This document shows, one piece after another, positions 1-48,454 of a DNA stretch of 64,000 bases. The number at the start of each line of letters is the position of its first letter. Position 1 is the first letter of the stretch. This stretch comes from Pseudisothecium myosuroides (Eukaryota; Streptophyta; Bryopsida; Hypnales; Lembophyllaceae): positions 124,001 through 188,000 of the forward strand of contig OX637296.1 of assembly GCA_951799445.1 (NCBI GenBank), in the 5' to 3' direction. The position numbers and the translations under genes are program-made. The notes under the pieces are model-generated. The model did not search any database. It was not told where the DNA came from and saw only the letters and a program-made list of their open reading frames with translations.

Positions 1-1064
1 GCAGAAAACCTGGCGAAAAGCCTGCCTTGTAATTAATGCATTTTTGAAATATTGGAGCCACTCTGCCATTTAGGGTTTGGGGGGGGTGGCCTGAAAGCCC
101 TGATCCACGCCAACGTCGTCGCCTGCTCCAGCACCTGCTCCCGCGCAACATTCGCCGGATTGCTACAGGAGCACTCGCCTTGTTGCTTGCCCGATGCTTC
201 CACACACAGCTGGGGCCAGTTGAGCTTGGTTGTTGATTTTGTTCATCGCCAGATTGAAACTCGTTTTGAAAAACACAATCGCCAATGTTTCTACAGATTT
301 TTGCACTCTGTCGCTTGTTTAATTTTGCTCATCTGTGCTCTTGATTTCTTCTGATTTGCATTTGATTTGGAGAGGTTTAGTGGCGGCGCTGCCATTGCTA
401 AAGGGAGGCGCATTCATTTGTTGGTTACTGCAATGGAGATGGAGAGCGTTGGAAGGTACATTGGTTCCCAATGCTTTGTTAGGGTTTAGGGTTTTCTACA
501 GTTCGAGGGCAACAACAATCACCTGTGGACTACATTAGTGTATGCTTCGATCCAGTCTTTGCATTTCTTGGCTATGTTCTTGTCTTCACTTGGCTGAAAT
601 GAGTTCTAGATTGAAATATTGTTGCATTGCTCTATGTTTGCTTTGCGAGTTTTGTTTTTGGTTGTTCATTCTGTCTACAACACCATGGTTTGACACAGCT
701 TCGCCAAAGGTGGTTGTCAACATTTCAGTGCTCATATTTTAAGTAATCCCATGGTTTGACAAGATCACCAACGGGGGTTCTGATTTTAGCTTGGCATTTG
801 GTTTGAGTGTTTTTTGGTGCCAGAGTGAGACTGCAATGGAGGACAAATTAGGCTGCCAGGAGTTGGAAAACCAAAATTTCGAGGGAGAGCTACCGGCAGC
901 AGACAGTTCCTTGCGACCTAGAGCTGCGACAGTGCCTAGTTCAGTTTCCAGAGCCATCTCCACGCCAATACAACATACGTTACACCATATGCCATACGTT
1001 AAACTTGTCATTAGTAGGTTGTATGGTATCATCTTCTATTAGCGTCTTGGGCAGCAGAAATTCA
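1..1064. other. Left flank, no recognised gene
   Basis: I see no recognisable gene here. A GC-richer patch around 80-235 and open frames of up to 100 codons exist, but none shows a known domain, a clear splice pattern or composition that sets it apart from chance. Telomere-type motifs (TTTAGGG plus TTT) lie at 69-78 and, doubled, at 479-495; such telo-boxes are common in plant promoters and 5' leaders. A 13-bp direct repeat beginning CCATGGTTTGAC occurs near 683 and 750. The stretch could include a leader or exon of a gene lying off the window, but nothing here proves it. Confidence 0.4.
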
Positions 1065-1239
1065 TGCGTAACTTACTCAATAAATGTCAGAATGAAGAAA
1101 AAATTAGATGCCCACGTAGATTTGTGAAATCCTTGTCTTCAATAAAAGTTTTAGAAAATTACACAAAGTAGTTTAGCCAAAGGTACATGCCCAAAGTCCC
1201 ACTTGTCCCCCGAACGGACAACGGTCCTTTAGGGGTTAA
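1065..1239 (-). mobile_element. Solo arm of TTAA-ended foldback/MITE family
   Basis: This stretch matches, almost base for base, the right arm of the foldback element at 56521-57244. Shared blocks include the run around TCAATAAATGTC, the AAAATTAGATGCC block, the GTACATGCCC block and the terminus GGTCCTTTAGGGGTTAA. A subterminal hairpin (TTGTCC...GGACAA) lies just inside the end. No opposite arm is visible upstream, so this is a truncated or decayed copy. It shows that the family is present on both sides of the satellite array. Confidence 0.75.
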
Positions 1240-1282
1240 GAGTGAGTTTCACTGAAAAAGGGCCACGGCCTTTAGGGGTTAA
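1240..1282 (-). mobile_element. Second TTAA-type terminus abutting the first
   Basis: Directly after the first TTAA comes GAGTGAGTTTCAC..GGCCACGGCCTTTAGGGGTTAA. This resembles the other terminus type of the family, seen at 54231-54280 (GAGTGTCATTTCAC...) and 56213-56253. Two family ends lie head-to-tail with a TTAA between them, which suggests that one copy inserted at a TTAA inside the end of another. Confidence 0.5.
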
Positions 1283-1344
1283 CTATATTTTAAAATCCTA
1301 ACATTCTCGTTTGTTTGCTCACAATTTCAATATTCACGATTTAG

Positions 1345-1812
1345 CTTCTCCTCCAGCCGGTTTAGGGTCACTTCATCAGTTCTCAGGTTTAGGGTTTCAC
1401 GGCTCCATGGGTGGCCGCCACGGTCTGTACCGGTGCAATTGGTGGTCGTCTCGGGGGTGTGAGTCGCGTCGCATTCTAGGTGGTTTCTTGTCGCGCCTTG
1501 CTTGCGGGGTTTCATGGGGTGCTGCTCGGGCGGGGCGTCGTCGGGTGCTTGTCCATCAATTTCCGGCAGTTAGCGCGCTGATGGAACGTTGGTCTCGATC
1601 GGTGGAGGCGGCTTCCCTGTTTTGATGGCAGGACTTGGCCGAGAGCAACGCTTGGGTCGGACCGGCAGCAGCTTGCGTCCCGCGGAGTGCCGCTTGTCAA
1701 CGTGCGGTGGCAAGCCAAGCCAATATTGTCCCCTATAAGTCTGTTGCCCACGGCGGCAGCGGGGTCTGATTGCTGGTCTCTCCTCTCATTCTTGTAAGAG
1801 CTCTTGCTTGTC
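1345..1812. other. GC-rich spacer with telo-box motifs before the satellite
   Basis: This interval is markedly richer in G and C than the neighbouring DNA. It carries TTTAGGG at 1361 and TTTAGGGTTT at 1388-1397. Overlapping open frames of about 100 codons occur on both strands, as expected for GC-rich DNA, and neither looks like a known protein. It resembles a plant promoter-proximal or 5'-leader stretch, but no gene body follows because the satellite begins at its end. It may be the remains of the sequence beside which the array expanded. Confidence 0.35.
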
Positions 1813-2464
1813 ATCTCTTGCTCTAAAATAGATGGTGCTGTTGCAAAAAGAAAAACAAAATGAAAGAATTTTTTGTATGTGTTGATTAAAAACCTTTAAG
1901 GTCTGCTATTATTTGTCATAACTTTTAAATGTGAACGTACTCTATTATTTTTGTTTTATCATTGCTTTGTCTTTCACAATGCACCGGCATCGTTTTAGGG
2001 TTTGAGATTGAGGTCCCACTTGCGGGCAGAACTTCCTGCCAGGCAACTAGTCCGGCGGCTGTTCTGCCCAAAAGTTGGAAATCTCTTGCTCGAAACGACG
2101 CGAGGTTGTTGCAAAAGGAAAAACAAAATGAAACAATTTTTTGTATGTGTTGATTAAAAACCTTTAAGGTCTGCTTTTATTTGTCATGACTTTTAAATGT
2201 GAAAGTACTCTATTATTTTTGTTTTATCATTGCTTTTCCTTTTACAATGCACCGGCATCGTTTTAGGGTTTGAGATTGAGGTCCCACTTGCGGGCAGAAC
2301 TTCCTGCCGGGCAATTAGCCCGGCCGCTGTTCTGCCCAAAAGTTGGAAATCTCTCGCCCTAAATGACGCGAGATTGTTGCAAAAGGAAAAACAAAATGAA
2401 ACAATTTTTTGTATGTGTTGATTAAAAACCTTTAAACATGATGTGCTTTTATTTGTCATGACTT

Positions 2465-2736
2465 TTAAATGTGAAAGTACTCTATTATTTTTGTTTTATC
2501 ATTGTTTTTCCTTTTACAATGCACCGGCTTCGTTTTAGGGTTTGAGATTGAGGTCCCACTTGCGGGCAGAACTTCCTGCCGGGCAATTAGCCCGGCGGCT
2601 GTTCTGCCCAAAAGTTGGAAATCTCTCGCCCTAAATGACGCGAGATTGTTGCAAAAGGAAAAACAAAATGAAACAATTTTTTGTATGTGTTGATTAAAAA
2701 CCTTTAAACATGATGTGCTTTTATTTGTCATGAGTT
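2465..2736 (+). repeat. Reference monomer: imperfect inverted repeat about 165 bp long
   Basis: Within this unit the left and right arms match as inverted copies in five collinear blocks. TTGTTTTTCCTTTT (2502-2515) pairs with its exact complement at 2653-2666. TTTAGGG (2534-2540) pairs with CCCTAAA (2629-2635). CCCACTT (2555-2561) pairs with AAGTTGG (2612-2618) at 6 of 7 positions. GGGCAGAAC (2564-2572) pairs with GTTCTGCCC (2601-2609). GCCGGGC pairs with GCCCGGC about the centre at 2587. Distances from the centre differ by at most about 5 bp between arms. The remaining roughly 80-100 bp is an AT-rich linker with the 8-bp palindrome GTCATGAC. The unit therefore looks like a decayed foldback element that was amplified in tandem. 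Confidence 0.85.
2564..2609 (+). other. Nested GC-rich hairpin at monomer centre
   Basis: The outer stem GGGCAGAAC/GTTCTGCCC is 9 bp and perfect. After a small internal loop comes an inner stem, GCCGGGC/GCCCGGC, of 7 bp with the loop AATTA. Perfect versions also occur in the units ending at 28296 and 47051. Common variants weaken it. GGGCCGAAC puts one mismatch in the outer stem. GGGCAGAAT makes a G-T(U) pair at its inner end. GCTCAGC or GCTCGGC instead of GCCCGGC gives wobble pairs or mismatches in the inner stem. The right-hand GTTCTGCCC is kept in nearly every unit. Confidence 0.85.
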
Positions 2737-4361
2737 TTAAATGTGAAAGTACTCTATTATTTTTGTTTTATCATTGTCTTCCTTTTACAATGCACCGGCT
2801 TCGTTTTAGGGTTTGAGATTGAGGTCCCACTTGCGGGCCGAACTTCCTGCCGGGCAATTAGCCCGGCGACTGTTCTGCCCAAAAGTTGAAAATCTCTTGC
2901 CCGAAACGACGCGAGGTTGTTGCAAAAGGAAAAACAAAATGAAACAATTTTTTGTATGTCTTGATTAAAAACCTTTAAACATGGTGTGCTTTTATTTGTC
3001 ATGACTTTTAAATGTGAAAGTACTCTATTATTTTTGTTTTATCATTGTCTTCCTTTTACAATGCACCGGCTTCGTTTTAGGGTTTGAGATTGAGGTCCCA
3101 CTTGCGGGCAGAACTTCCTGCCCGGCAATTAGCCCGGCGACTGTTCTGCCCAAAAGTTGAAAATCTCTTGCCCGAAACGACGCGAGGTTGTTGCAAAAGG
3201 AAAAACAAAATGAAACAATTTTTTGTTTGTGTTGATTAAAAACCTTTAAACATGGTGTGCTTTTATTTGTCATGACTTTTAAATGTGAAAGTACTCTATT
3301 ATTTTTGTTTTATCATTGTTTTTCCTTTTACAATGCACCGGCTTCGTTTTAGGGTTTGAGATTGAGGTCCCACTTGCGGGCAGAATTTCCTGCCGGGCAT
3401 TTAGCCCGGCGGCTGTTCTGCCCAAAAGTTGGAAATCTCTCGCCCTAAATGACGCGAGATTGTTGCAAAAGGAAAAACAAAATGAAACAATTTTTTGTAT
3501 GTGTTGATTAGAAACCTTTAAACATGGTGTGCTTTTATTTGTCATGACTTTTAAATGTGAAAGTACTCTATTATTTTTGTTTTATCATTGTTTTTCCTTT
3601 TACAATGCACCGGCTTCGTTTTAGGGTTTGAGATTGAGGTCCCACTTGCGGGCAGAACTTCCTGCCGGGCAATCAGCCCGGCCGCTGTTCTGCCCAAAAG
3701 TTGGAAATCTCTCGCTCTAAACGACGTGAGGTTGTTGCAAAAGGAAAAACAAAATGAAACAATTTTTTGTATGTATTGATTAAAAACCTTTAAACATGGT
3801 GTGCTTTTATTTGTCATGACTTTTAAATGTGAAAGTACTCTATTATTTTTGTTTTATCATTGTTTTTCCTTTTACAATGCACCGGCTTCGTTTTAGGGTT
3901 TGAGATTGAGGTCCCACTTGCGGGAAGAACTTCCTGCCGGGCAATTAGCTCGGCGGCTGTTCTGCCCAAAAGTTGGAAATGATTCGCTCTAAACGACGCG
4001 AGGTTGTTGCAAAAGGAAAAACAAAATGAAACAATTTTTTGTATGTGTTGATTAAAAACCTTTAAACATGGTGTGCTTTTATTTGTCATGACTTTTAAAT
4101 GTGAAAGTACTCTATTATTTTTGTTTTATCATTGTTTTTCCTTTTACAATGCCCTGGCTTCGTTTTAGGGTTTGAGATTGAGGTCCCACTTGCGGGCAGA
4201 ATTTCCTGCCCGGCAATTAGCCCGGCGGCTGTTCTGCCCAAAAGTTGGAAATCTCTCGCTCTAAACGACGCGAGGTTGTTGCAAAAGGAAAAACAAAATG
4301 AAACAATTTTTTGTATGTGTTGATTAAAAACCTTTAAACATGGTGTGCTTTTATTTGTCAT

Positions 4362-7300
4362 GACTTTTAAATGTGATAGTACTCTATTATTTTTGTTTTA
4401 TCACTGTTTTTCCTTTTACAATGCCCTGGCTTCGTTTTAGGGTTTGAGATTGAGGTCCCACTTGCGGGCAGAATTTCCTGCCCGGCAATTAGCCCGGCGG
4501 CTGTTCTGCCCAAAAGTTGGAAATCTCTCGCTCTAAACGACGCGAGGTTGTTGCAAAAGGAAAAACAAAATGAAACAATTTTTTGTATGTGTTGATTAAA
4601 AACCTTTAAACATGGTGTGCTTTTATTTGTCATGACTTTTAAATGTGATAGTACTCTATTATTTTTGTTTTATCACTGTTTTTCCTTTTACAATGCCCTG
4701 GCTTCGTTTTAGGGTTTGAGATTGAGGTCCCACTTGCGGGCAGAATTTCCTGCCGGGCAATTAGCCCGGCGGCTGTTCTGCCCAAAAGTTGGAAATCTCT
4801 CGCTCTAAACGACGCGAGGTTGTTGCAAAAGGAAAAACAAAATGAAACAATTTTTTGTATGTGTTGATTAAAAACCTTTAAACATGGTGTGCTTTTATTT
4901 GTCATGACTTTTAAATGTGAAAGTACTCTATTATTTTTGTTTTATCATTGTTTTTCCTTTTACAATGCACCGGCTTCGTTTTAGGGTTTGAGATTGAGGT
5001 CCCACTTGCGGGCAGAACTTCCTACCGGGCAATTAGCTCAGCGGCTGTTCTGCCCAAAAGTTGGAAATCTCTTGCTCTAAACGACACGAGGTTGTTGCAA
5101 AAGAAAAAACAAAATGAAACAATTTTTTGTTTGTGTTGATTAAAAACCTTTAAACATGGTGTGCTTTTATTTGTCATGACTTTTAAATGTGAAAGTACTC
5201 TATTATTTTTGTTTTATCATTGTTTTTCCTTTTACAATGCCCTGGCTTCGTTTTAGGGTTTGAGATTGAGGTCCCACTTGCGGGCAGAACTTCCTGCCGA
5301 GCAATTAGCCCGGCGACTGTTCTGCCCTAAAGTTGGAAATCTCTCGCCCTAAATGACGCGAGATTGTTGCAAAAGGAAAAACAAAATGAAACAATTTTTT
5401 GTATGTGTTGATTAAAAACCTTTAAACATGATGTGCTTTTATTTGTCATGACTTTTGAATGTGAACGTACTCTATTATTTTTGTTTTATCATTGTTTTTC
5501 CTTTTACAATGCACCGGCTTCGTTTTAGGGTTTGAGATTGAGGTCCCACTTGCGGGCAGAACTTCCTGCCAGGCAATTAGCTCGGCGGCTGTTCTGCCCA
5601 AAAGTTGGAAATCTCTCGCTCTAAACGACGCGAGGTTGTTGCAAAAGGAAAAACAAAATGAAACAATTTTTTGTATGTATTGATTAAAAACCTTTAAACA
5701 TGGTGTGCTTTTATTTGTCATGACTTTTAAATGTGAAAGTACTCTATTATTTTTGTTTTATCATTGTTTTTCCTTTTACAATGCCCTGGCTTCGTTTTAG
5801 GGTTTGAGATTGAGATCCCACTTGCGGGCAGAATTTCCTGCCCGGCAATTAGCCCGGCGGCTGTTCTGCCCAAAAGTTGGAAATCTCTCGCTCTAAACGA
5901 CGCGAGGTTGTTGCAAAAGGAAAAACAAAATGAAACAATTTTTTGTATGTGTTGATTAAAAACCTTTAAACATGGTTTGCTTTTATTTGTCATGACTTTT
6001 AAATGTGAAAGTACTCTATTATTTTTGTTTTATCATTGTTTTTCCTTTTACAATGCCCTGGCTTCGTTTTAGGGTTTGAGATTGAGGTCCCACTTGCGGG
6101 CCGAACTTCCTACCGGGCAATTAGCTCAGCGGCTGTTCTGCCCAAAAGTTGGAAATCTCTCGCTCTAAACGACGCGAGGTTGTTGCAAAAGGAAAAACAA
6201 AATGAAACAATTTTTTGTATGTGTTGATTAAAAACCTTTAAACATGGTGTGCTTTTATTTGTCATGACTTTTAAATGTGAAAGTACTCTATTATTTTTGT
6301 TTTATCATTGTTTTTCCTTTTACAATGCCCTGGCTTCGTTTTAGGGTTGGAGATTGAGGTCCCACTTGCGGGCAGAATTTCCTGCCCGGCAATTAGCCCG
6401 GCGGCTGTTCTGCCCAAAAGTTGGAAATCTCTCGCTCTAAACGACGCGAGGTTGTTGCAAAAGGAAAAACAAAATGAAACAATTTTTTGTATGTGTTGAT
6501 TAAAAACCTTTAAACATGGTGTGCTTTTATTTGTCATGACTTTTAAATGTGAAAGTACTCTATTATTTTTGTTTTATCATTGTTTTTCCTTTTACAATGC
6601 CCTGGCTTCGTTTTAGGGTTTGAGATTGAGGTCCCACTTGCGGGCAGAATTTCCTGCCCGGCAATTAGCCCGGCGGCTGTTCTGCCCAAAAGTTGGAAAT
6701 CTCTCGCTCTAAACGACGCGAGGTTGTTGCAAAAGGAAAAACAAAATGAAACAATTTTTTGTATGTGTTGATTAAAAACCTTTAAACATGGTGTGCTTTT
6801 ATTTGTCATGACTTTTAAATGTGAAAGTACTCTATTATTTTTGTTTTATCATTGTTTTTCCTTTTACAATGCACCGGCTTCGTTTTAGGGTTTGAGATTG
6901 AGGTCCCACTTGCGGGCCGAACTTCCTGCCGGGCAATTAGCTCAGCGGCTGTTCTGCCCAAAAGTTGGAAATCTCTCGCTCTAAACGACGCGAGGTTGTT
7001 GCAAAAGGAAAAACAAAATGAAACAATTTTTTGTATGTGTTGATTAAAAACCTTTAAACATGGTTTGCTTTTATTTGTCATGACCTTTAAATGTGAAAGT
7101 ACTCTATTATTTTTGTTTTATCATTGTTTTTCCTTTTACAATGCCCTGGCTTCGTTTTAGGGTTTGAGATTGAGGTCCCACTTGCGGGCCGAACTTCCTA
7201 CCGGGCAATTAGCTCAGCGGCTGTTCTGCCCAAAAGTTGGAAATCTCTCGCTCTAAACGACGCGAGGTTGTTGCAAAAGGAAAAACAAAATGAAACAATT

Positions 7301-8441
7301 TTTTGTATGTGTTGATTAAAAACCTTTAAACATGGTGTGCTTTTATTTGTCATGACTTTTAAATGTGAAAGTACTCTATTATTTTTGTTTTATCATTGTT
7401 TTTCCTTTTACAATGCCCTGGCTTCGTTTTAGGGTTTGAGATTGAGGTCCCACTTGCGGGCAGAATTTCCTGCCCGGCAATTAGCCCGGCGGCTGTTCTG
7501 CCCAAAAGTTGGAAATCTCTCGCTCTAAACGACGCGAGGTTGTTGCAAAAGGAAAAACAAAATGAAACAATTTTTTGTATGTGTTGATTAAAAACCTTTA
7601 AACATGGTGTGCTTTTATTTGTCATGACTTTTAAATGTGAAAGTACTCTATTATTTTTGTTTTATCATTGTTTTTCCTTTTACAATGCCCTGGCTTCGTT
7701 TTAGGGTTTGAGATTGAGGTCCCACTTGCGGGCAGAATTTCCTGCCCGGCAATTAGCCCGGCGGCTGTTCTGCCCAAAAGTTGGAAATCTCTCGCTCTAA
7801 ACGACGCGAGGTTGTTGCAAAAGGAAAAACAAAATGAAACAATTTTTTGTATGTGTTGATTAAAAACCTTTAAACATGGTGTGCTTTTATTTGTCATGAC
7901 TTTTAAATGTGAAAGTACTCTATTATTTTTGTTTTATCATTGTTTTTCCTTTTACAATGCACCGGCTTCGTTTTAGGGTTTGAGATTGAGGTCCCACTTG
8001 CGGGCCGAACTTCCTGCCGGGCAATTAGCTCAGCGGCTGTTCTGCCCAAAAGTTGGAAATCTCTCGCTCTAAACGACGCGAGGTTGTTGCAAAAGGAAAA
8101 ACAAAATGAAACAATTTTTTGTATGTGTTGATTAAAAACCTTTAAACATGGTGTGCTTTTATTTGTCATGACTTTTAAATGTGAAAGTACTCTATTATTT
8201 TTGTTTTATCATTGTTTTTCCTTTTACAATGCACCGGCTTCGTTTTAGGGTTTGAGATTGAGGTCCCACTTGCGGGCCGAACTTCCTGCCGGGCAATTAG
8301 CTCAGCGGCTGTTCTGCCCAAAAGTTGGAAATCTCTCGCTCTAAACGACGCGAGGTTGTTGCAAAAGGAAAAACAAAATGAAACAATTTTTTGTTTGTGT
8401 TGATTAAAAACCTTTAAACATGGTGTGCTTTTATTTGTCAT
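4362..8441 (+). repeat. Higher-order block 1, first copy
   Basis: This run of monomers recurs at 8985-11704 in the same order. Diagnostic changes fix the register: TGCCCTAAAGTTGG at 5324 recurs 4623 bp later, GAGATCCC at 5813 recurs 4351 bp later, and the TTTTTTGTTTGTG unit near 8394 recurs 3263 bp later. The shrinking offset equals the loss of exactly one and then four monomers in the second copy. Inside this copy the four monomers 5994-7081 are themselves repeated at 7082-8169, 1088 bp apart. Confidence 0.85.
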
Positions 8442-8984
8442 GACTTTTAAATGTGAAAGTACTCTATTATTTTTGTTTTATCATTGTTTTTCCTTTTACA
8501 ATGCACCGGCTTCGTTTTAGGGTTTGAGATTGAGGTCCCACTTGCGGGCCGAACTTCCTGCCGGGCAATTAGCTCAGCGGCTGTTCTGCCCAAAAGTTGG
8601 AAATCTCTCGCTCTAAACGACGCGAGGTTGTTGCAAAAGGAAAAACAAAATGAAACAATTTTTTGTATGTGTTGATTAAAAACCTTTAAACATGGTGTGC
8701 TTTTATTTGTCATGACTTTTAAATGTGAAAGTACTCTATTATTTTTGTTTTATCATTGTCTTCCTTTTACAATGCACCGGCTTCGTTTTAGGGTTTGAGA
8801 TTGAGGTCCCACTTGCGGGCAGAACTTCCTGCCCGGCAATTAGCCCGGCGACTGTTCTGCCCAAAAGTTGAAAATCTCTTGCCCGAAACGACGCGAGGTT
8901 GTTGCAAAAGGAAAAACAAAATGAAACAATTTTTTGTATGTGTTGATTAAAAACCTTTAAACATGGTGTGCTTTTATTTGTCAT

Positions 8985-11704
8985 GACTTTTAAATGTGAT
9001 ACTACTCTATTATTTTTGTTTTATCACTGTTTTTCCTTTTACAATGCCCTGGCTTCGTTTTAGGGTTTGAGATTGAGGTCCCACTTGCGGGCAGAATTTC
9101 CTGCCCGGCAATTAGCCCGGCGGCTGTTCTGCCCAAAAGTTGGAAATCTCTCGCTCTAAACGACGCGAGGTTGTTGCAAAAGGAAAAACAAAATGAAACA
9201 ATTTTTTGTATGTGTTGATTAAAAACCTTTAAACATGGTGTGCTTTTATTTGTCATGACTTTTAAATGTGATAGTACTCTATTATTTTTGTTTTATCACT
9301 GTTTTTCCTTTTACAATGCCCTGGCTTCGTTTTAGGGTTTGAGATTGAGGTCCCACTTGCGGGCAGAATTTCCTGCCGGGCAATTAGCCCGGCGGCTGTT
9401 CTGCCCAAAAGTTGGAAATCTCTCGCTCTAAACGACGCGAGGTTGTTGCAAAAGGAAAAACAAAATGAAACAATTTTTTGTATGTGTTGATTAAAAACCT
9501 TTAAACATGGTGTGCTTTTATTTGTCATGACTTTTAAATGTGAAAGTACTCTATTATTTTTGTTTTATCATTGTTTTTCCTTTTACAATGCACCGGCTTC
9601 GTTTTAGGGTTTGAGATTGAGGTCCCACTTGCGGGCAGAACTTCCTACCGGGCAATTAGCTCAGCGGCTGTTCTGCCCAAAAGTTGGAAATCTCTTGCTC
9701 TAAACGACACGAGGTTGTTGCAAAAGAAAAAACAAAATGAAACAATTTTTTGTTTGTGTTGATTAAAAACCTTTAAACATGGTTTGCTTTTATTTGTCAT
9801 GACTTTTAAATGTGAAAGTACTCTATTATTTTTGTTTTATCATTGTTTTTCCTTTTACAATGCCCTGGCTTCGTTTTAGGGTTTGAGATTGAGGTCCCAC
9901 TTGCGGGCAGAACTTCCTGCCGAGCAATTAGCCCGGCGACTGTTCTGCCCTAAAGTTGGAAATCTCTCGCCCTAAATGACGCGAGATTGTTGCAAAAGGA
10001 AAAACAAAATGAAACAATTTTTTGTATGTGTTGATTAAAAACCTTTAAACATGATGTGCTTTTATTTGTCATGACTTTTGAATGTGAACGTACTCTATTA
10101 TTTTTGTTTTATCATTGTTTTTCCTTTTACAATGCCCTGGCTTCGTTTTAGGGTTTGAGATTGAGATCCCACTTGCGGGCAGAATTTCCTGCCCGGCAAT
10201 TAGCCCGGCGGCTGTTCTGCCCAAAAGTTGGAAATCTCTCGCTCTAAACGACGCGAGGTTGTTGCAAAAGGAAAAACAAAATGAAACAATTTTTTGTATG
10301 TGTTGATTAAAAACCTTTAAACATGGTTTGCTTTTATTTGTCATGACTTTTAAATGTGAAAGTACTCTATTATTTTTGTTTTATCATTGTTTTTCCTTTT
10401 ACAATGCCCTGGCTTCGTTTTAGGGTTTGATATTGAGGTCCCACTTGCGGGCCGAACTTCCTACCGGGCAATTAGCTCAGCGGCTGTTCTGCCCAAAAGT
10501 TGGAAATCTCTCGCTCTAAACGACGCGAGGTTGTTGCAAAAGGAAAAACAAAATGAAACAATTTTTTGTATGTGTTGATTAAAAACCTTTAAACATGGTG
10601 TGCTTTTATTTGTCATGACTTTTAAATGTGAAAGTACTCTATTATTTTTGTTTTATCATTGTTTTTCCTTTTACAATGCCCTGGCTTCGTTTTAGGGTTT
10701 GAGATTGAGGTCCCACTTGCGGGCAGAATTTCCTGCCCGGCAATTAGCCCGGCGGCTGTTCTGCCCAAAAGTTGGAAATCTCTCGCTCTAAACGACGCGA
10801 GGTTGTTGCAAAAGGAAAAACAAAATGAAACAATTTTTTGTATGTGTTGATTAAAAACCTTTAAACATGGTGTGCTTTTATTTGTCATGACTTTTAAATG
10901 TGAAAGTACTCTATTATTTTTGTTTTATCATTGTTTTTCCTTTTACAATGCCCTGGCTTCGTTTTAGGGTTTGAGATTGAGGTCCCACTTGCGGGCAGAA
11001 TTTCCTGCCCGGCAATTAGCCCGGCGGCTGTTCTGCCCAAAAGTTGGAAATCTCTCGCTCTAAACGACGCGAGGTTGTTGCAAAAGGAAAAACAAAATGA
11101 AACAATTTTTTGTATGTGTTGATTAAAAACCTTTAAACATGGTGTGCTTTTATTTGTCATGACTTTTAAATGTGAAAGTACTCTATTATTTTTGTTTTAT
11201 CATTGTTTTTCCTTTTACAATGCACCGGCTTCGTTTTAGGGTTTGAGATTGAGGTCCCACTTGCGGGCCGAACTTCCTGCCGGGCAATTAGCTCAGCGGC
11301 TGTTCTGCCCAAAAGTTGGAAATCTCTCGCTCTAAACGACGCGAGGTTGTTGCAAAAGGAAAAACAAAATGAAACAATTTTTTGTATGTGTTGATTAAAA
11401 ACCTTTAAACATGGTGTGCTTTTATTTGTCATGACTTTTAAATGTGAAAGTACTCTATTATTTTTGTTTTATCATTGTTTTTCCTTTTACAATGCACCGG
11501 CTTCGTTTTAGGGTTTGAGATTGAGGTCCCACTTGCGGGCCGAACTTCCTGCCGGGCAATTAGCTCAGCGGCTGTTCTGCCCAAAAGTTGGAAATCTCTC
11601 GCTCTAAACGACGCGAGGTTGTTGCAAAAGGAAAAACAAAATGAAACAATTTTTTGTTTGTGTTGATTAAAAACCTTTAAACATGGTGTGCTTTTATTTG
11701 TCAT
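8985..11704 (+). repeat. Higher-order block 1, second copy (shortened)
   Basis: This is the second copy of the block, lacking five monomers relative to the first. The unit 10073-10344 joins a start typical of the unit ending at 5721 (TTTTGAATGTGAACG) to a body typical of the unit ending at 5993 (GAGATCCC). That is the junction expected from precise removal of one repeat by unequal exchange. The internal 4-monomer block that is doubled in the first copy is single here. Confidence 0.82.
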
Positions 11705-12099
11705 GACTTTTAAATGTGAAAGTACTCTATTATTTTTGTTTTATCATTGTTTTTCCTTTTACAATGCACCGGCTTCGTTTTAGGGTTTGAGATTGAGGTC
11801 CCACTTGCGGGCAGAACTTCCTGCCGAGCAATTAGCCCGGCGACTGTTCTGCCCAAAAGTTGGAAATCTCTCGCCCTAAATGACGCGAGATTGTTGCAAA
11901 AGGAAAAACAAAATGAAACAATTTTTTGTATGTGTTGATTAAAAACCTTTAAACATGATGTGCTTTTATTTGTCATGACTTTTGAATGTGAACGTACTCT
12001 ATTATTTTTGTTTTATCATTGTTTTTCCTTTTACAATGCACCGGCTTCGTTTTAGGGTTTGAGATTGAGGTCCCACTTGCGGGCCGAATTTCCTGCCAG

Positions 12100-15000
12100 G
12101 CAATTAGCTCGGCGGCTGTTCTGCCCAAAAGTTGGAAATGATTCGCTCTAAACGACGCGAGGTTGTTGCAAAAGGAAAAACAAAATGAAACAATTTTTTG
12201 TATGTGTAGATTAAAAACCTTTAAACATGGTGTGCTTTTATTTGTCATGACTTTTAAATGTGAAAGTACTCTATTATTTTTGTTTTATCATTGTTTTTCC
12301 TTTTACAATGCCCTGGCTTCGTTTTAGGGTTTGAGATTGAGGTCCCACTTGCGGGCAGAATTTCCTGCCCGGCAATTAGCCCGGCGGCTGTTCTGCCCAA
12401 AAGTTGGAAATCTCTCGCTCTAAACGACGCGAGGTTGTTGCAAAAGGAAAAACAAAATGAAACAATTTTTTATATGTGTTGATTAAAAACCTTTAAACAT
12501 GGTGTGCTTTTATTTGTCATGACTTTTAAATGTGAAAGTACTCTATTATTTTTGTTTTATCACTGTTTTTCCTTTTACAATGCCCTGGCTTCGTTTTAGG
12601 GTTTGAGATTGAGATCCCACTTGCGGGCAAAATTTCCTGCCGGGCAATTAGCCCGGCGGCTGTTCTGCCCAAAAGTTGGAAATCTCTCGCTCTAAACGAC
12701 GCGAGGTTGTTGCAAAAGGAAAAACAAAATGAAACAATTTTTTGTATGTGTTGATTAAAAACCTTTAAACATGGTTTGCTTTTATTTGTCATGACTTTTA
12801 AATGTGAAAGTACTCTATTATTTTTGTTTTATCCTTGTTTTTCCTTTTACAATGCACCGGCTTCGTTTTAGGGTTTGAGATTGAGGTCCCACTTGCGAGC
12901 AGAACTTCCTGCCGGGCAATTAGCTCAGCGGCTGTTCTGCCCAAAAGTTGGAAATCTCTCGCTCTAAACGACGCGAGGTTGTTGCAAAAGGAAAAACAAA
13001 ATGAAACAATTTTTTGTATGTGTTGATTAAAAACCTTTAAACATGGTGTGCTTTTATTTGTCATGACTTTTAAATGTGATAGTACTCTATTATTTTTGTT
13101 TTATCACTTTTTTTCCTTTTACAATGCCCTGGCTTCGTTTTAGGGTTTGAGATTGAGGTCCCACTTGCGGGCAGAATTTCCTGCCGGGCAATTAGCCCGG
13201 CGGCTGTTCTGCCCAAAAGTTGGAAATCTCTCGCTCTAAACGACGCGAGGTCGTTGCAAAAGGAAAAACAAAATGAAACAATTTTTTGTATGTGTTGATT
13301 AAAAACCTTTAAACATGGTGTGCTTTTATTTGTCATGACTTTTAAATGTGAAAGTACTCTATTATTTTTGTTTTATCATTGTTTTTCCTTTTACAATGCA
13401 CCGGCTTCGTTTTAGGGTTTGAGATTGAGGTCCCACTTGCGGGCCGAACTTCCTGCCGGGCAATTAGCTCAGCGGCTGTTCTGCCCAAAAGTTGGAAATC
13501 TCTCGCTCTAAACGACGCGAGGTTGTTGCAAAAGGAAAAACAAAATGAAACAATTTTTTGTATGTGTTGATTAAAAACCTTTAAACATGGTGTGCTTTTA
13601 TTTGTCATGACTTTTAAATGTGAAAGTACTCTATTATTTTTGTTTTATCATTGTTTTTCCTTTTACAATGCCCTGGCTTCGTTTTAGGGTTTGAGATTGA
13701 GGTCCCACTTGCGGGCAGAATTTCCTGCCCGGCAATTAGCCCGGCGGCTGTTCTGCCCAAAAGTTGGAAATCTCTCGCTCTAAACGACGCGAGGTTGTTG
13801 CAAAAGGAAAAACAAAATGAAACAATTTTTTGTATGTGTTGATTAAAAACCTTTAAACATGGTGTGCTTTTATTTGTCATGACTTTTAAATGTGATAGTA
13901 CTCTATTATTTTTGTTTTATCCTTGTTTTTCCTTTTACAATGCACCGGCTTCGTTTTAGGGTTTGAGATTGAGGTCCCACTTGCGGGCAGAATTTCCTGC
14001 CCGGCAATTAGCCCGGCGGCTGTTCTGCCCAAAAGTTGGAAATCTCTCGCTCTAAACGACGCGAGGTTGTTGCAAAAGGAAAAACAAAATGAAACAATTT
14101 TTTGTATGTGTTGATTAAAAACCTTTAAACATGGTGTGCTTTTATTTGTCATGACTTTTAAATGTGAACGTACTCTATTATTTTTGTTTTATCACTTTTT
14201 TTCCTTTTACAATGCCCTGGCTTCGTTTTAGGGTTTGAGATTGAGGTCCCACTTGCGGGCAAAATTTCCTGCCGGGCAATTAGCCCGGCGGCTGTTCTGC
14301 CCAAAAGTTGGAAATCTCTCGCTCTAAACGACGCGAGGTTGTTGCAAAAGGAAAAACAAAATGAAACAATTTTTTGTATGTGTTGATTAAAAACCTTTAA
14401 ACATGGTTTGCTTTTATTTGTCATGACTTTTAAATGTGAAAGTACTCTATTATTTTTGTTTTATCATTGTTTTTCCTTTTACAATGCACCGGCTTCGTTT
14501 TAGGGTTTGAGATTGAGGTCCCACTTGCGGGCCGAACTTCCTGCCGGGCAATTAGCTCAGCGGCTGTTCTGCCCAAAAGTTGGAAATCTCTCGCTCTAAA
14601 CGACGCGAGGTTGTTGCAAAAGGAAAAACAAAATGAAACAATTTTTTGTATGTGTTGATTAAAAACCTTTAAACATGATGTGCTTTTATTTGTCATGACT
14701 TTTGAATGTGAACGTACTCTATTATTTTTGTTTTATCATTGTTTTTCCTTTTACAATGCACCGGCTTCGTTTTAGGGTTTGAGATTGAGGTCCCACTTGC
14801 GGGCAGAACTTCCGGCCAGGCAATTAGCTCGGCGGCTGTTCTGCCCAAAAGTTGGAAATCTCTCGCTCTAAACGACGCGAGGTTGTTGCAAAAGGAAAAA
14901 CAAAATGAAACAATTTTTTGTATGTGTTGATTAAAAACCTTTAAACATGGTGTGCTTTTATTTGTCATGACTTTTAAATGTGAAAGTACTCTATTATTTT

Positions 15001-17144
15001 TGTTTTATCATTGTTTTTCCTTTTACAATGCCCTGGCTTCGTTTTAGGGTTTGAGATTGAGGTCCCACTTGCGGGCAGAATTTCCTGCCCGGCAATTAGC
15101 CCGGCGGCTGTTCTGCCCAAAAGTTGGAAATCTCTCGCTCTAAACGACGCGAGGTTGTTGCAAAAGGAAAAACAAAATGAAACAATTTTTTGTATGTGTT
15201 GATTAAAAACCTTTAAACATGGTGTGCTTTTATTTGTCATGACTTTTAAATGTGAACGTACTCTATTATTTTTGTTTTATCACTGTTTTTCCTTTTACAA
15301 TGCCCTGGCTTCGTTTTAGGGTTTGAGATTGAGGTCCCACTTGCGGGCAAAATTTCCTGCCGGGCAATTAGTTCGGCGGCTGTTCTGCCCAAAAGTTGGA
15401 AATCTCTCGCTCTAAACGACGCGAGGTTGTTGCAAAAGGAAAAACAAAATGAAACAATTTTTTGTATGTGTTGATTAAAAACCTTTAAACATGGTTTGCT
15501 TTTATTTGTCATGACTTTTAAATGTGAAAGTACTCTATTATTTTTGTTTTATCATTGTTTTTCCTTTTACAATGCACCGGCTTCGTTTTAGGGTTTGAGA
15601 TTGAGGTCCCACTTGCGGGCCGAACTTCCTGCCGGGCAATTAGCTCAGCGGCTGTTCTGCCCAAAAGTTGGAAATCTCTCGCTCTAAACGACGCGAGGTT
15701 GTTGCAAAAGGAAAAACAAAATGAAACAATTTTTTGTATGTGTTGATTAAAAACCTTTAAACATGGTGTGCTTTTATTTGTCATGACTTTTAAATGTGAA
15801 AGTACTCTATTATTTTTGTTTTATCATTGTTTTTCCTTTTACAATGCACCGGCTTCGTTTTAGGGTTTGAGATTGAGGTCCCACTTGCGGGCCGAACTTC
15901 CTGCCGGGCAATTAGCTCAGCGGCTGTTCTGCCCAAAAGTTGGAAATCTCTCGCTCTAAACGACGCGAGGTTGTTGCAAAAGGAAAAACAAAATGAAACA
16001 ATTTTTTGTATGTGTTGATTAAAAACCTTTAAACATGGTGTGCTTTTATTTGTCATGACTTTTAAATGTGAAAGTACTCTATTATTTTTGTTTTATCATT
16101 GTTTTTCCTTTTACAATGCACCGGCTTCGTTTTAGGGTTTGAGATTGAGGTCCCACTTGCGGGCCGAACTTCCTGCCGGGCAATTAGCTCAGCGGCTGTT
16201 CTGCCCAAAAGTTGGAAATCTCTCGCTCTAAACGACGCGAGGTTGTTGCAAAAGGAAAAACAAAATGAAACAATTTTTTGTATGTGTTGATTAAAAACCT
16301 TTAAACATGGTGTGCTTTTATTTGTCATGACTTTTAAATGTGATAGTACTCTATTATTTTTGTTTTATCACTTTTTTTCCTTTTACAATGCCCTGGCTTC
16401 GTTTTAGGGTTTGAGATTGAGGTCCCACTTGCGGGCAGAATTTCCTGCCGGGCAATTAGCCCGGCGGCTGTTCTGCCCAAAAGTTGGAAATCTCTCGCTC
16501 TAAACGACGCGAGGTCGTTGCAAAAGGAAAAACAAAATGAAACAATTTTTTGTATGTGTTGATTAAAAACCTTTAAACATGGTGTGCTTTTATTTGTCAT
16601 GACTTTTAAATGTGAAAGTACTCTATTATTTTTGTTTTATCGTTGTTTTTCCTTTTACAATGCACCGGCTTCGTTTTAGGGTTTGAGATTGAGGTCCCAC
16701 TTGCGGGCCGAACTTCCTGCCGGGCAATTAGCTCAGCGGCTGTTCTGCCCAAAAGTTGGAAATCTCTCGCTCTAAACGACGCGAGGTTGTTGCAAAAGGA
16801 AAAACAAAATGAAACAATTTTTTGTATGTGTTGATTAAAAACCTTTAAACATGGTGTGCTTTTATTTGTCATGACTTTTAAATGTGAAAGTACTCTATTA
16901 TTTTTGTTTTATCATTGTTTTTCCTTTTACAATGCCCTGGCTTCGTTTTAGGGTTTGAGATTGAGGTCCCACTTGCGGGCAGAATTTCCTGCCCGGCAAT
17001 TAGCCCGGCGGCTGTTCTGCCCAAAAGTTGGAAATCTCTCGCTCTAAACGACGCGAGGTTGTTGCAAAAGGAAAAACAAAATGAAACAATTTTTTGTATG
17101 TGTTGATTAAAAACCTTTAAACATGGTGTGCTTTTATTTGTCAT
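12100..17144 (+). repeat. Higher-order block 2, first copy
   Basis: Rare markers recur 5713 bp downstream (21 monomers plus 1 bp). They include TTTTTATATGTG near 12468, the GCGAGCAGAAC unit near 12896 and GAGGTCGTTGC at 13248. From about 15.3 kb the offset drops to 4897 bp, shown by TATCGTTGTTTTT at 16638 versus 21535. Monomers 14425-15240 therefore have no partner in the second copy. Part of the block is also internally repeated: 13065-13880 resembles 16329-17144, 12 monomers apart. Confidence 0.85.
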
Positions 17145-17811
17145 GACTTTTAAATGTGAAAGTACTCTATTATTTTTGTTTTATCATTGTTTTTCCTTTT
17201 ACAATGCACCGGCTTCGTTTTAGGGTTTGAGATTGAGGTCCCACTTGCGGGCCGAACTTCCTGCCGGGCAATTAGCTCAGCGGCTGTTCTGCCCAAAAGT
17301 TGGAAATCTCTCGCTCTAAACGACGCGAGGTTGTTGCAAAAGGAAAAACAAAATGAAACAATTTTTTGTATGTGTTGATTAAAAACCTTTAAACATGGTG
17401 TGCTTTTATTTGTCATGACTTTTAAATGTGAAAGTACTCTATTATTTTTGTTTTATCATTGTTTTTCCTTTTACAATGCACCGGCTTCGTTTTAGGGTTT
17501 GAGATTGAGGTCCCACTTGCGGGCCGAACTTCCTGCCGGGCAATTAGCTCAGCGGCTGTTCTGCCCAAAAGTTGGAAATCTCTCGCTCTAAACGACGCGA
17601 GGTTGTTGCAAAAGGAAAAACAAAATGAAACAATTTTTTGTATGTGTTGATTAAAAACCTTTAAACATGGTGTGCTTTTATTTGTCATGACTTTTAAATG
17701 TGAACGTACTCTATTATTTTTGTTTTATCACTGTTTTTCCTTTTACAATGCCCTGGCTTCGTTTTAGGGTTTGAGATTGAGGTCCCACTTGCGGGCAAAA
17801 TTTCCTGCCAG

Positions 17812-20800
17812 GCAATTAGCTCGGCGGCTGTTCTGCCCAAAAGTTGGAAATGATTCGCTCTAAACGACGCGAGGTTGTTGCAAAAGGAAAAACAAAATGA
17901 AACAAAATTTTTGTATGTGTAGATTAAAAACCTTTAAACATGGTGTGCTTTTATTTGTCATGACTTTTAAATGTGAAAGTACTCTATTATTTTTGTTTTA
18001 TCATTGTTTTTCCTTTTACAATGCCCTGGCTTCGTTTTAGGGTTTGAGATTGAGGTCCCACTTGCGGGCAGAATTTCCTGCCCGGCAATTAGCCCGGCGG
18101 CTGTTCTGCCCAAAAGTTGGAAATCTCTCGCTCTAAACGACGCGAGGTTGTTGCAAAAGGAAAAACAAAATGAAACAATTTTTTATATGTGTTGATTAAA
18201 AACCTTTAAACATGGTGTGCTTTTATTTGTCATGACTTTTAAATGTGAAAGTACTCTATTATTTTTGTTTTATCACTGTTTTTCCTTTTACAATGCCCTG
18301 GCTTCGTTTTAGGGTTTGAGATTGAGATCCCACTTGCGGGCAAAATTTCCTGCCGGGCAATTAGCCCGGCGGCTGTTCTGCCCAAAAGTTGGAAATCTCT
18401 CGCTCTAAACGACGCGAGGTTGTTGCAAAAGGAAAAACAAAATGAAACAATTTTTTGTATGTGTTGATTAAAAACCTTTAAACATGGTTTGCTTTTATTT
18501 GTCATGACTTTTAAATGTGAAAGTACTCTATTATTTTTGTTTTATCCTTGTTTTTCCTTTTACAATGCACCGGCTTCGTTTTAGGGTTTGAGATTGAGGT
18601 CCCACTTGCGAGCAGAACTTCCTGCCGGGCAATTAGCTCAGCGGCTGTTCTGCCCAAAAGTTGGAAATCTCTCGCTCTAAACGACGCGAGGTTGTTGCAA
18701 AAGGAAAAACAAAATGAAACAATTTTTTGTATGTGTTGATTAAAAACCTTTAAACATGGTGTGCTTTTATTTGTCATGACTTTTAAATGTGATAGTACTC
18801 TATTATTTTTGTTTTATCACTTTTTTTCCTTTTACAATGCCCTGGCTTCGTTTTAGGGTTTGAGATTGAGGTCCCACTTGCGGGCAGAATTTCCTGCCGG
18901 GCAATTAGCCCGGCGGCTGTTCTGCCCAAAAGTTGGAAATCTCTCGCTCTAAACGACGCGAGGTCGTTGCAAAAGGAAAAACAAAATGAAACAATTTTTT
19001 GTATGTGTTGATTAAAAACCTTTAAACATGGTGTGCTTTTATTTGTCATGACTTTTAAATGTGAAAGTACTCTATTATTTTTGTTTTATCATTGTTTTTC
19101 CTTTTACAATGCCCTGGCTTCGTTTTAGGGTTTGAGATTGAGGTCCCACTTGCGGGCCGAACTTCCTGCCGGGCAATTAGCTCAGCGGCTGTTCTGCCCA
19201 AAAGTTGGAAATCTCTCGCTCTAAACGACGCGAGGTTGTTGCAAAAGGAAAAACAAAATGAAACAATTTTTTGTATGTGTTGATTAAAAACCTTTAAACA
19301 TGGTGTGCTTTTATTTGTCATGACTTTTAAATGTGAAAGTACTCTATTATTTTTGTTTTATCATTGTTTTTCCTTTTACAATGCCCTGGCTTCGTTTTAG
19401 GGTTTGAGATTGAGGTCCCACTTGCGGGCAGAATTTCCTGCCCGGCAATTAGCCCGGCGGCTGTTCTGCCCAAAAGTTGGAAATCTCTCGCTCTAAACGA
19501 CGCGAGGTTGTTGCAAAAGGAAAAACAAAATGAAACAATTTTTTGTATGTGTTGATTAAAAACCTTTAAACATGGTGTGCTTTTATTTGTCATGACTTTT
19601 AAATGTGATAGTACTCTATTATTTTTGTTTTATCCTTGTTTTTCCTTTTACAATGCACCGGCTTCGTTTTAGGGTTTGAGATTGAGGTCCCACTTGCGGG
19701 CAGAATTTCCTGCCCGGCAATTAGCCCGGCGGCTGTTCTGCCCAAAAGTTGGAAATCTCTCGCTCTAAACGACGCGAGGTTGTTGCAAAAGGAAAAACAA
19801 AATGAAACAATTTTTTGTATGTGTTGATTAAAAACCTTTAAACATGGTGTGCTTTTATTTGTCATGACTTTTAAATGTGAACGTACTCTATTATTTTTGT
19901 TTTATCACTTTTTTTCCTTTTACAATGCCCTGGCTTCGTTTTAGGGTTTGAGATTGAGGTCCCACTTGCGGGCAAAATTTCCTGCCGGGCAATTAGCCCG
20001 GCGGCTGTTCTGCCCAAAAGTTGGAAATCTCTCGCTCTAAACGACGCGAGGTTGTTGCAAAAGGAAAAACAAAATGAAACAATTTTTTGTATGTGTTGAT
20101 TAAAAACCTTTAAACATGGTGTGCTTTTATTTGTCATGACTTTTAAATGTGAACGTACTCTATTATTTTTGTTTTATCACTGTTTTTCCTTTTACAATGC
20201 CCTGGCTTCGTTTTAGGGTTTGAGATTGAGGTCCCACTTGCGGGCAAAATTTCCTGCCGGGCAATTAGTTCGGCGGCTGTTCTGCCCAAAAGTTGGAAAT
20301 CTCTCGCTCTAAACGACGCGAGGTTGTTGCAAAAGGAAAAACAAAATGAAACAATTTTTTGTATGTGTTGATTAAAAACCTTTAAACATGGTTTGCTTTT
20401 ATTTGTCATGACTTTTAAATGTGAAAGTACTCTATTATTTTTGTTTTATCATTGTTTTTCCTTTTACAATGCACCGGCTTCGTTTTAGGGTTTGAGATTG
20501 AGGTCCCACTTGCGGGCCGAACTTCCTGCCGGGCAATTAGCTCAGCGGCTGTTCTGCCCAAAAGTTGGAAATCTCTCGCTCTAAACGACGCGAGGTTGTT
20601 GCAAAAGGAAAAACAAAATGAAACAATTTTTTGTATGTGTTGATTAAAAACCTTTAAACATGGTGTGCTTTTATTTGTCATGACTTTTAAATGTGAAAGT
20701 ACTCTATTATTTTTGTTTTATCATTGTTTTTCCTTTTACAATGCACCGGCTTCGTTTTAGGGTTTGAGATTGAGGTCCCACTTGCGGGCCGAACTTCCTG

Positions 20801-22041
20801 CCGGGCAATTAGCTCAGCGGCTGTTCTGCCCAAAAGTTGGAAATCTCTCGCTCTAAACGACGCGAGGTTGTTGCAAAAGGAAAAACAAAATGAAACAATT
20901 TTTTGTATGTGTTGATTAAAAACCTTTAAACATGGTGTGCTTTTATTTGTCATGACTTTTAAATGTGAAAGTACTCTATTATTTTTGTTTTATCATTGTT
21001 TTTCCTTTTACAATGCACCGGCTTCGTTTTAGGGTTTGAGATTGAGGTCCCACTTGCGGGCCGAACTTCCTGCCGGGCAATTAGCTCAGCGGCTGTTCTG
21101 CCCAAAAGTTGGAAATCTCTCGCTCTAAACGACGCGAGGTTGTTGCAAAAGGAAAAACAAAATGAAACAATTTTTTGTATGTGTTGATTAAAAACCTTTA
21201 AACATGGTGTGCTTTTATTTGTCATGACTTTTAAATGTGATAGTACTCTATTATTTTTGTTTTATCACTTTTTTTCCTTTTACAATGCCCTGGCTTCGTT
21301 TTAGGGTTTGAGATTGAGGTCCCACTTGCGGGCAGAATTTCCTGCCGGGCAATTAGCCCGGCGGCTGTTCTGCCCAAAAGTTGGAAATCTCTCGCTCTAA
21401 ACGACGCGAGGTCGTTGCAAAAGGAAAAACAAAATGAAACAATTTTTTGTATGTGTTGATTAAAAACCTTTAAACATGGTGTGCTTTTATTTGTCATGAC
21501 TTTTAAATGTGAAAGTACTCTATTATTTTTGTTTTATCGTTGTTTTTCCTTTTACAATGCACCGGCTTCGTTTTAGGGTTTGAGATTGAGGTCCCACTTG
21601 CGGGCCGAACTTCCTGCCGGGCAATTAGCTCAGCGGCTGTTCTGCCCAAAAGTTGGAAATCTCTCGCTCTAAACGACGCGAGGTTGTTGCAAAAGGAAAA
21701 ACAAAATGAAACAATTTTTTGTATGTGTTGATTAAAAACCTTTAAACATGGTGTGCTTTTATTTGTCATGACTTTTAAATGTGAAAGTACTCTATTATTT
21801 TTGTTTTATCATTGTTTTTCCTTTTACAATGCCCTGGCTTCGTTTTAGGGTTTGAGATTGAGGTCCCACTTGCGGGCAGAATTTCCTGCCCGGCAATTAG
21901 CCCGGCGGCTGTTCTGCCCAAAAGTTGGAAATCTCTCGCTCTAAACGACGCGAGGTTGTTGCAAAAGGAAAAACAAAATGAAACAATTTTTTGTATGTGT
22001 TGATTAAAAACCTTTAAACATGGTGTGCTTTTATTTGTCAT
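17812..22041 (+). repeat. Higher-order block 2, second copy (three monomers fewer)
   Basis: This copy is collinear with the first apart from loss of three monomers (816 bp). The monomer at its left border, ending at 17961, is 273 bp because of an extra A/T base in the AAACAAAATTTTTG stretch, which accounts for the odd 1 bp in the 5713-bp period. One unit (19050-19321) differs from its partner by the paired change GCACCGGC to GCCCTGGC, which is the state of the other main subfamily. This suggests a very short conversion tract. Confidence 0.83.
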
Positions 22042-25000: not shown

Positions 25001-26120
25001 ACCTTTAAACATGGTGTGCTTTTATTTGTCATGACTTTTAAATGTGAACGTACTCTATTATTTTTGTTTTATCACTGTTTTTCCTTTTACAATGCACATG
25101 CTTCGTTTTAGGGTTTGAGATTGAGGTCCCACTTGCGGGCAGAATTTCCTGCCGGACAATTAGCCCGGCGGCTGTTCTGCCCAAAAGTTGGAAATCTCTC
25201 GCTCTAAACGACGCGAGGTTGTTGCAAAAGGAAAAACAAAATGAAACAATTTTTTGTATGTGTTGATTAAAAACCTTTAAACATGGTGTGCTTTTATTTG
25301 TCATGACTTTTAAATGTGAACGTACTCTATTATTTTTGTTTTATCACTGTTTTTCCTTTTACAATGCACATGCTTCGTTTTAGGGTTTGAGATTGAGGTC
25401 CCACTTGCGGGCAGAATTTCCTGCCGGACAATTAGCCCGGCGGCTGTTCTGCCCAAAAGTTGGAAATCTCTCGCTCTAAATGACGCGAGGTTGTTGCAAA
25501 AGGAAAAACAAAATGAAACAATTTTTTGTATGTGTTGATTAAAAACCTTTAAACATGGTGTGCTTTTATTTGTCATGACTTTTAAATGTGAAAGTACTCT
25601 ATTATTATTGTTTTATCCTTGTTTTTCCTTTTACAATGCACCGGCTTCGTTTTAGGGTTTGAGATTGAGGTCCCACTTGCGGGCAGAATTTCCTGCCGGG
25701 CAATTAGCCCGGCGGCTGTTCTGCCCAAAAGTTGGAAATCTCTCGCTCTAAACGACGCGAGGTTGTTGCAAAAGGAAAAACAAAATGAAACAATTTTTTA
25801 TATGTATTGATTAAAAACCTTTAAACATGGTGTGCTTTTATTTGTCATGACTTTTAAATGTGAAAGTACTCTATTATTTTTGTTTTATCATTGTTTTTCC
25901 TTTTACAATGCACCGGCTTCGTTTTAGGGTTTGAGATTGAGGTCCCACTTGCGGGCAGAACTTCCTGCCGGGCAATTTGCTCAGCGGCTGTTCTGCCCAA
26001 AAGTTGGAAATCTCTCGCTCTAAACGACGCGAGGTTGTTGCAAAAGGAAAAACAAAATGAAACAATTTTTTGTATGTGTTGATTAAAAACCTATAAACAT
26101 GGTGTGCTTTTATTTGTCAT

Positions 26121-28840: not shown

Positions 28841-29384
28841 GACTTTTAAATGTGAACGTACTCTATTATTTTTGTTTTATCACTGTTTTTCCTTTTACAA
28901 TGCACATGCTTCGTTTTAGGGTTTGAGATTGAGGTCCCACTTGCGGGCAGAATTTCCTGCCGGACAATTAGCCCGGCGGCTGTTCTGCCCAAAAGTTGGA
29001 AATCTCTCGCTCTAAATGACGCGAGGTTGTTGCAAAAGGAAAAACAAAATGAAACAATTTTTTGTATGTGTTGATTAAAAACCTTTAAACATGGTGTGCT
29101 TTTATTTGTCATGACTTTTAAATGTGAAAGTACTCTATTATTATTGTTTTATCCTTGTTTTTCCTTTTACAATGCACCGGCTTCGTTTTAGGGTTTGAGA
29201 TTGAGGTCCCACTTGCGGGCCGAACTTCCTGCCGGGCAATTTGCTCAGCGGCTGTTCTGCCCAAAAGTTGGAAATCTCTCGCTCTAAACGACGCGAGGTT
29301 GTTGCAAAAGGAAAAACAAAATGAAACAATTTTTTGTATGTGTTGATTAAAAACCTTTAAACATGGTGTGCTTTTATTTGTCAT

Positions 29385-48440: not shown

Positions 48441-48454
48441 ATATATATATATAT
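48441..48454. repeat. (AT)7 microsatellite
   Basis: Fourteen bases of alternating A and T stand within AT-rich intergenic DNA. No associated gene is visible. Confidence 0.9.

Follow-up and report, generated by a model that had tools for sequence, protein, structure and literature searches.

A locus-restricted 272-bp moss satellite with a decayed palindrome in its unit and three to about 194 units per array

Long internal inverted repeats have been described in some satellites, although such cases are not so common (PMC13081366, partial text), and how these satellites grow is unsettled. In the beetle Tribolium madens the 704-bp monomer of TmSat2 contains inverted segments of ~300 bp, and in Trichogramma brassicae a 385-bp satellite carries 80-bp inverted repeats (PMC13081366, partial text). 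The foldback element Tetris of Drosophila virilis gave rise to the TIR-220 satellite; here near-identical alleles differ in unit number (three, four) and arrays reach up to 66 units (PMC4079207, partial text). For Xstir, Hikosaka and Kawahara (2004) modelled the step from a MITE to a tandem repeat, with nucleases excising the loop of a stem-loop and the remainder being joined (PMC12628747, partial text). In the moss Physcomitrella, satellite monomers of 27-217 bp are described, and the terms hairpin, secondary structure and inverted repeat are absent from the available text of that paper (PMC6302065).

Here we describe a 272-bp unit from the moss Pseudisothecium myosuroides that, repeated head to tail ~166 times, fills ~45 kb of the window, that is, of the whole 64,000-nt stretch analysed. 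With TIR-220/Tetris (unit ~220 bp) it shares inverted-repeat-rich sequence tied to tandem arrays; yet in Tetris the repeats lie within the arms of an element with target duplications (PMC4079207, partial text), whereas in the moss each unit has a palindrome of its own, and element copies and target duplications were both looked for without success. The inverted segments recall TmSat2 and the geometry is near that of the T. brassicae satellite; TmSat2, however, is highly abundant and putatively (peri)centromeric, while the moss repeat occurs in eight arrays only (PMC13081366, partial text). Symmetric array edges recall the loop excision proposed for Xstir, but no MITE copies and no MITE-plus-array composite were found in the moss genome (PMC12628747, partial text). 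Among published satellites of 272 bp or of moss, MITE-derived plant, dyad or hairpin/siRNA type, as given by titles and abstract starts, the repeat was not recognised.

The reading that we favour, and consider likely, is that of a locus-restricted satellite, probably methylated, with an old foldback sequence decaying in its unit and a copy number that shifts by unequal exchange or template switching. Satellites of this general sort are already known, and the copy-number series is unusually clean: one genome, ~99% identical surroundings and 3, 3, 6, 6, 6, 13, 165 and ~194 units form a natural series, which would allow one to measure directly how a hairpin affects array instability, methylation and small-RNA output.

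The repeat unit and its palindrome

TRF places the array at 1839-47142 (period 272, 166.6 copies, 96% matches), and BLAST with the reference unit (Table 1) extracts 165 full units and one partial unit at each array end. Of the full units 18 have a gap and 2 an insertion; the left partial unit begins at phase 157, and the right one stops at phase 85. Pairwise, the units of the window differ by about 3.4-3.5% on average. No strong higher-order period was seen at lags 1-59, the mean difference staying at 3.0-3.6% and dipping slightly at lags 7 and 12; near-identical pairs are most frequent at lag 12 (20) and lag 1 (18). A coding array was considered and rejected: 272 is not a multiple of 3, and open reading frames of at least 120 aa are limited to two, of 178 and 153 aa. 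Long arrays of near-identical, non-coding head-to-tail units are what is expected of a satellite; the abundance over many chromosomes or heterochromatic domains that also marks satellites was not found, the unit turning up, among the best candidates scored, in eight block copies only and making up about 0.03% of the genome (hand estimate). The window contains no Rfam family at gathering scores and no tRNA. The unit had no match among plasmids, and one exact 34-base pattern had none among viral contigs, both weak tests for a plant repeat.

Table 1. Positions of the array, its parts and the surrounding features (window positions unless a contig or piece is named; phase refers to the reference unit).
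Feature	Position	Strand	Remark
Tandem array	1813..47142	+	TRF, BLAST unit extraction, lag table, local alignment at left edge
Reference unit	2465..2736	+	defines phase 1-272
Imperfect palindrome, ~186 bp	2491..2676		phase 27-212, centre 2587
GC-rich hairpin core, 71 nt	2550..2620		phase 86-156; segment missing at both array edges
Exact inverted block, 14 bp	2502-2515/2653-2666
Exact inverted block, 9 bp	2564-2572/2601-2609
Exact inverted block, 7 bp	2578-2584/2590-2596
Exact inverted block, 7 bp	2534-2540/2629-2635
Exact inverted block, 6 bp	2544-2549/2620-2625
AT-rich 86-bp spacer	2677..2762	+	separates successive palindromes
Degraded left edge	1813..1838	+	resembles phase 157-171 over 15 bases, diverged thereafter
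Right edge, last partial unit	47057..47142	+	last base at phase 85, in C105 as in the seven arrays read
TATA-like site, CTATAAG	1733..1739	+	~75 bp before the array; putative function
Left flank	1..1812		lies in the duplicated block; 8 places at >=99%
Right flank	47143..64000		belongs to the same block as the left flank
Broken Replitron HUH endonuclease gene, PF21859	-2498..-1962 (L015:3-536)	-	one TAG
Block copies on C49	G000:C49:179714-180705 and 697021-698824	+ and -
5.8S rRNA gene	L037:239-391 and L039:4837-4989		no other Rfam match in the surrounding 2 kb and 10 kb

The first-pass annotation had described the unit as a decayed palindrome centred on 2587, and our analysis bears this out. 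Five exact block pairs have their midpoints at 2584-2587 and are thus collinear, and the consensus aligned with its own reverse complement reaches a gapped score of 67, against a mean of 13.4 (sd 2.8, maximum 29) in 500 dinucleotide shuffles. The exact pairs of 14, 9 and 7 bp listed in that annotation are correct, whereas for its fifth block no exact match was found. Three further T-rich pairs are off this line or overlapping, with lengths of 9 bp (midpoint 2578.5), 7 bp (2589) and 6 bp (2583.5). Between the consensus arms 68 of 87 ungapped positions are identical, with 7 gap columns, and minus-strand self matches of 69-72% run across phase 27-212. Arm identity is 0.81 in the core, 0.64 in the middle and 0.86 in the outer part, which indicates uneven decay.

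Folded as RNA, the reference unit reaches -102.9 kcal/mol on the plus strand (z -8.63) and -94.0 kcal/mol on the minus strand (z -9.25), none of 200 shuffles being as good on either strand, so that the comparison with shuffled sequence once proposed as a check came out in favour of the palindrome; with DNA parameters z is -8.55, and again no shuffle out of 200 matched it. The 202 full units of seven arrays fold with a mean of -94.9 (range -107.8 to -74.3) on the plus strand and of -80.9 (-94.0 to -65.9) on the minus strand, these being energies without per-unit shuffles, and the central hairpin persists in each of three consecutive consensus units when they are folded together. With stable folds predicted on both strands, a transcript from either could form hairpins, as had been suggested.

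Eight arrays in one duplicated block

The genome searched comprises 387.9 Mb in 222 contigs, the window being G000:C10:124001-188000. Within it the unit has 129 matches in seven arrays (best 7 of 10 first-look candidates scored); the left flank adds an eighth place, C105 (best 40 of 994 candidates scored), and the first 1.5 kb of the right flank match the same eight places (best 40 of 138). The C105 array extends from ~137950 to 190889 and would hold ~194 units, calculated by hand from the distance between the edges read. The 186-bp palindrome alone (E<=10) has 119 matches, all within array loci (best 7 of 10 candidates scored), and for the 86-bp spacer, where about 404 copies are expected in eight arrays (by hand, units plus one per array), 405 first-look candidates were obtained, with 40 of the 40 best, which were scored, lying in arrays. 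The searches keep the best candidates, and a few distant copies could be missed.

These results bear on the origin from a mobile foldback or MITE-like family, turned satellite, that the first-pass annotation had proposed, together with a search for dispersed solo copies flanked by target duplications. Inverted arms are indeed present in the unit, the ends of any element being undefined, the left (ATCTC..) and right (..GAGAT) array edges are inverted copies of each other, and long foldback elements lie nearby, for example at 56520-57244 (RNA fold z -53 versus 20 shuffles). However, there is no solo MITE-like copy among the scored genome matches of unit, palindrome or spacer, the palindrome matches all fall within array loci, the array edges show no target duplication (within the unit, T-runs on either side of the palindrome could mask one), and no transposase is tied to the unit. 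A comparison of the unit with the other fetched pieces of the block (winL, winR, L017-L034) likewise gave nothing below E 0.1, the best value being 0.11. We consider a transposon origin of this kind rather unlikely.

All eight arrays occupy one position of a large duplicated chromosome block, with flanks ~99% identical. The other copies agree with the window over almost all of the flank sequence compared. The 1838 bp left of the array show 0-17 differences among seven copies, and the left flank of C105 scores 3311 bits versus 3315 for the window itself. C123 matches the flanks over 41 kb of its length (4001-45223), corresponding to window -21459 to 64000, where -21459 is the limit of the sequence fetched for this comparison; a stretch of ~8.7 kb at window -17696..-8977 is present in C10 and C123 and absent from C6 and C217, and the C7 copy is rearranged left of window -11387. 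The copies form four sequence groups, C10/C105, C123/C49a, C6/C217/C49b and C7. Some unplaced contigs may represent alternative haplotypes, so that the independent loci number eight at most; one 741-kb contig, C49, carries two oppositely oriented block copies ~516 kb apart that belong to different groups. A paralogue of window 1476-1779 lies elsewhere in the block, near C10:281936, with no right-flank match listed beside it (best 40 of 138 candidates scored).

From a lone 5.8S gene to the start of the left flank, with the array length subtracted by hand, the distance is ~118-119 kb in C10, C105, C123 and C49a, 112 kb in C6, 131 kb in C7 and 192 kb in C217/C49b, and the block thus probably extends that far, with insertions and deletions. 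Matches to 5.8S, one per block copy, account for 8 of the 10 listed (best 39 of 10571 candidates scored). That the array is an rDNA spacer was considered and rejected: the 10 kb around one 5.8S gene hold this gene only, at gathering scores, and we therefore take it as a carried rDNA fragment.

Hairpins are typical of the ends of rolling-circle (HUH) elements, and a broken HUH gene (PF21859 match, 4.3e-15) lies ~3.8 kb left of the array, as would fit an array that forms part of such an element, a Replitron. Yet of the 51 HUH matches genome-wide (64 of 64 candidates scored) only eight belong to the block, one per copy and with one TAG each, while the other 43 lie elsewhere, where array searches found no such array. 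The Replitron gene is hence probably a passenger, and that the array belongs to it appears highly improbable.

The number of full units is 165 in the window (C10), 13 in C7, 6 each in C6, C217 and C49b, and 3 each in C123 and C49a, which by sequence group gives 165/~194 (C10/C105), 3/3 (C123/C49a), 6/6/6 (C6/C217/C49b) and 13 (C7). Between C10 and C123, 5 of 1838 flank bases differ; their first full units differ by 13, their second by 6 and their last by 6 of 272 bases, and 3 of 85 positions differ in their left partial units. In the right partial unit the window, C123 and C6 show no difference at all (0 of 85), which means that fast evolution does not extend to the whole array. Unit diversity in the window array is 3.4%; counted per A/T consensus site it is 2.1%, and with the C/T and G/A columns removed 1.3%. 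The short arrays are equally diverse (C7 3.5%, C6 2.6%, C123 3.4%). Compared with the 0-17 differences per 1838 flank bases, the 3.4% unit diversity indicates that unit number and content turn over faster than the flanks. Either unit diversity would predate the block copies or the array would mutate or convert faster, and under both timings the comparison points to a large change in unit number within a short time. An identical sister exists for 75 of the 165 units, and over all 165 the nearest sister lies a median of 11 units away, in keeping with local unequal exchange. The change could be either growth in C10/C105 or loss elsewhere.

For the locus-restricted satellite that we favour, we envisage the following course. 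An old foldback sequence, either a short inverted duplication or a dead foldback element, would have been tandemly duplicated together with neighbouring sequence; the array would grow and shrink through unequal exchange, single-strand annealing or replication template switching, probably favoured by the hairpin; and it would be held as methylated heterochromatin, in which the hairpin would now decay like any unselected sequence.

Substitution pattern and hairpin pairing

By hand count, 607 of the 1138 variant cells are C-to-T or G-to-A changes. The transition rate is 5.5% in CG, 5.3% in CHG and 1.5% in CHH context, and a transition is seen at 18 of 20, 12 of 16 and 23 of 70 sites, respectively; by site, CG and CHG together lie above CHH with a one-sided p of 1e-6, for a single unit family whose sites are not independent of array history. 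Plant maintenance methylation is expected to leave its mark at CG and CHG together, and the array is probably methylated heterochromatin. CpG observed/expected in the unit is 0.97, i.e. not depleted, which speaks against very long heavy methylation.

Whether pairing in the hairpin is maintained was assessed on the 202 full units from seven arrays (C105, with only its edges and 10 kb read, was left out). Over 91 consensus-fold pairs we counted 10 doubly changed cells (5 still paired) versus 15.2 expected under independence, and of 97 distinct alleles found at paired hairpin sites 27 still form a pair, versus 27.3 +/- 2.1 for randomly relocated ones. Variants are most frequent at paired sites (mean 2.65%), less so at unpaired sites of the hairpin (1.75%) and least outside it (1.22%); excluding CpG, the values are 2.14%, 0.95% and 1.22%. 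A strand-neutral alignment of the arms contains 5 G.T and 4 A.C mismatches, i.e. no G.U strand bias between arms. In energy-based folds there are 12 G.U pairs on the plus and 4 on the minus strand, a lean that we discount because each fold chooses G.U pairs for its own strand. The 202 units show no compensatory excess, and the pairing is not maintained; we read the hairpin as a worn relic that decays with no selection acting on RNA structure, not as a feature kept by the cell.

The same data bear on a functional hairpin-RNA locus, also raised by the first-pass annotation, in which the array would be transcribed and processed into small RNAs. Stable hairpins are predicted on both strands in the 202 folded units, and the TATA-like site upstream is intact in the two long-array copies and missing from the six short ones: base 1737 is A (TATAAG) in the window and C105 and G (TATGAG) in all six short-array copies. 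C10 and C105 are, however, close kin, so this difference may be one chance change and serves as a lead only; the same hairpin is found in arrays of just 3 units, the window has no Rfam match, paired sites are the most variable, and neither compensatory changes nor G.U bias point to a maintained structure. The substitution data thus lend no support to an RNA function, which we regard as very unlikely.

Array edges and neighbouring features

The left-edge letters are identical in the seven arrays read and in C105, and diverged over phase 172-183. Local alignment extends this edge to 1813 by a 15-base match with one mismatch that continues the array, and the BLAST alignment in C105 spans the same stretch. 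The alignment score of 13 is modest (300 shuffles: 95th percentile 12, maximum 15), and the match is credited because it is in phase with the array, not for its score. In the hairpin pair table phase 84 pairs with 157 and phase 85 with 156; the two ends of the array map to one and the same place on the stem, at the base of the 71-nt core. The chance of the second edge falling within one base of its partner is about 3/272, a hand estimate made post hoc. Since all copies descend from one block, the symmetric edges are one observation, not eight, and the argument is weakened further by a left edge that is diverged and identified from a 15-base match. Still, plain unequal exchange does not explain the symmetry, which counts against the reading that we favour. 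Hairpin-guided cutting might instead have driven the birth or movement of the array, although we think this distinctly unlikely. If true, the array would be the fragment freed when a structure-specific nuclease removes the cores of two hairpins, and the palindrome would be the cause of satellite excision and insertion, not a relic.

Several other features lie in the surroundings. The foldback element at 56520-57244 measures ~725 bp, with arms of 244 and 117 nt (85-88%), and shares repeats with 49974-50386, 51188-51371, 53432-53615 and 55190-55732. By eye, window about 1040-1290, ~550 bp left of the array, resembles one arm of this foldback family, and window 1059-1239 recurs at 84-89% in many places of the block. 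Farther left, at window -21750..-18837 (L018, plus strand), two long open frames of 535 and 382 aa are without a Pfam match and resemble a Crinkler-type P-loop protein. A dispersed repeat at 47398-47687, ~255 bp right of the array, has at least 27 matches (66-73%) on several chromosomes, and pyrimidine-rich tandem repeats of the TTTCCCCAAAGTCGC type, with periods of 21-29 bp (TRF), occupy 53255-54333.
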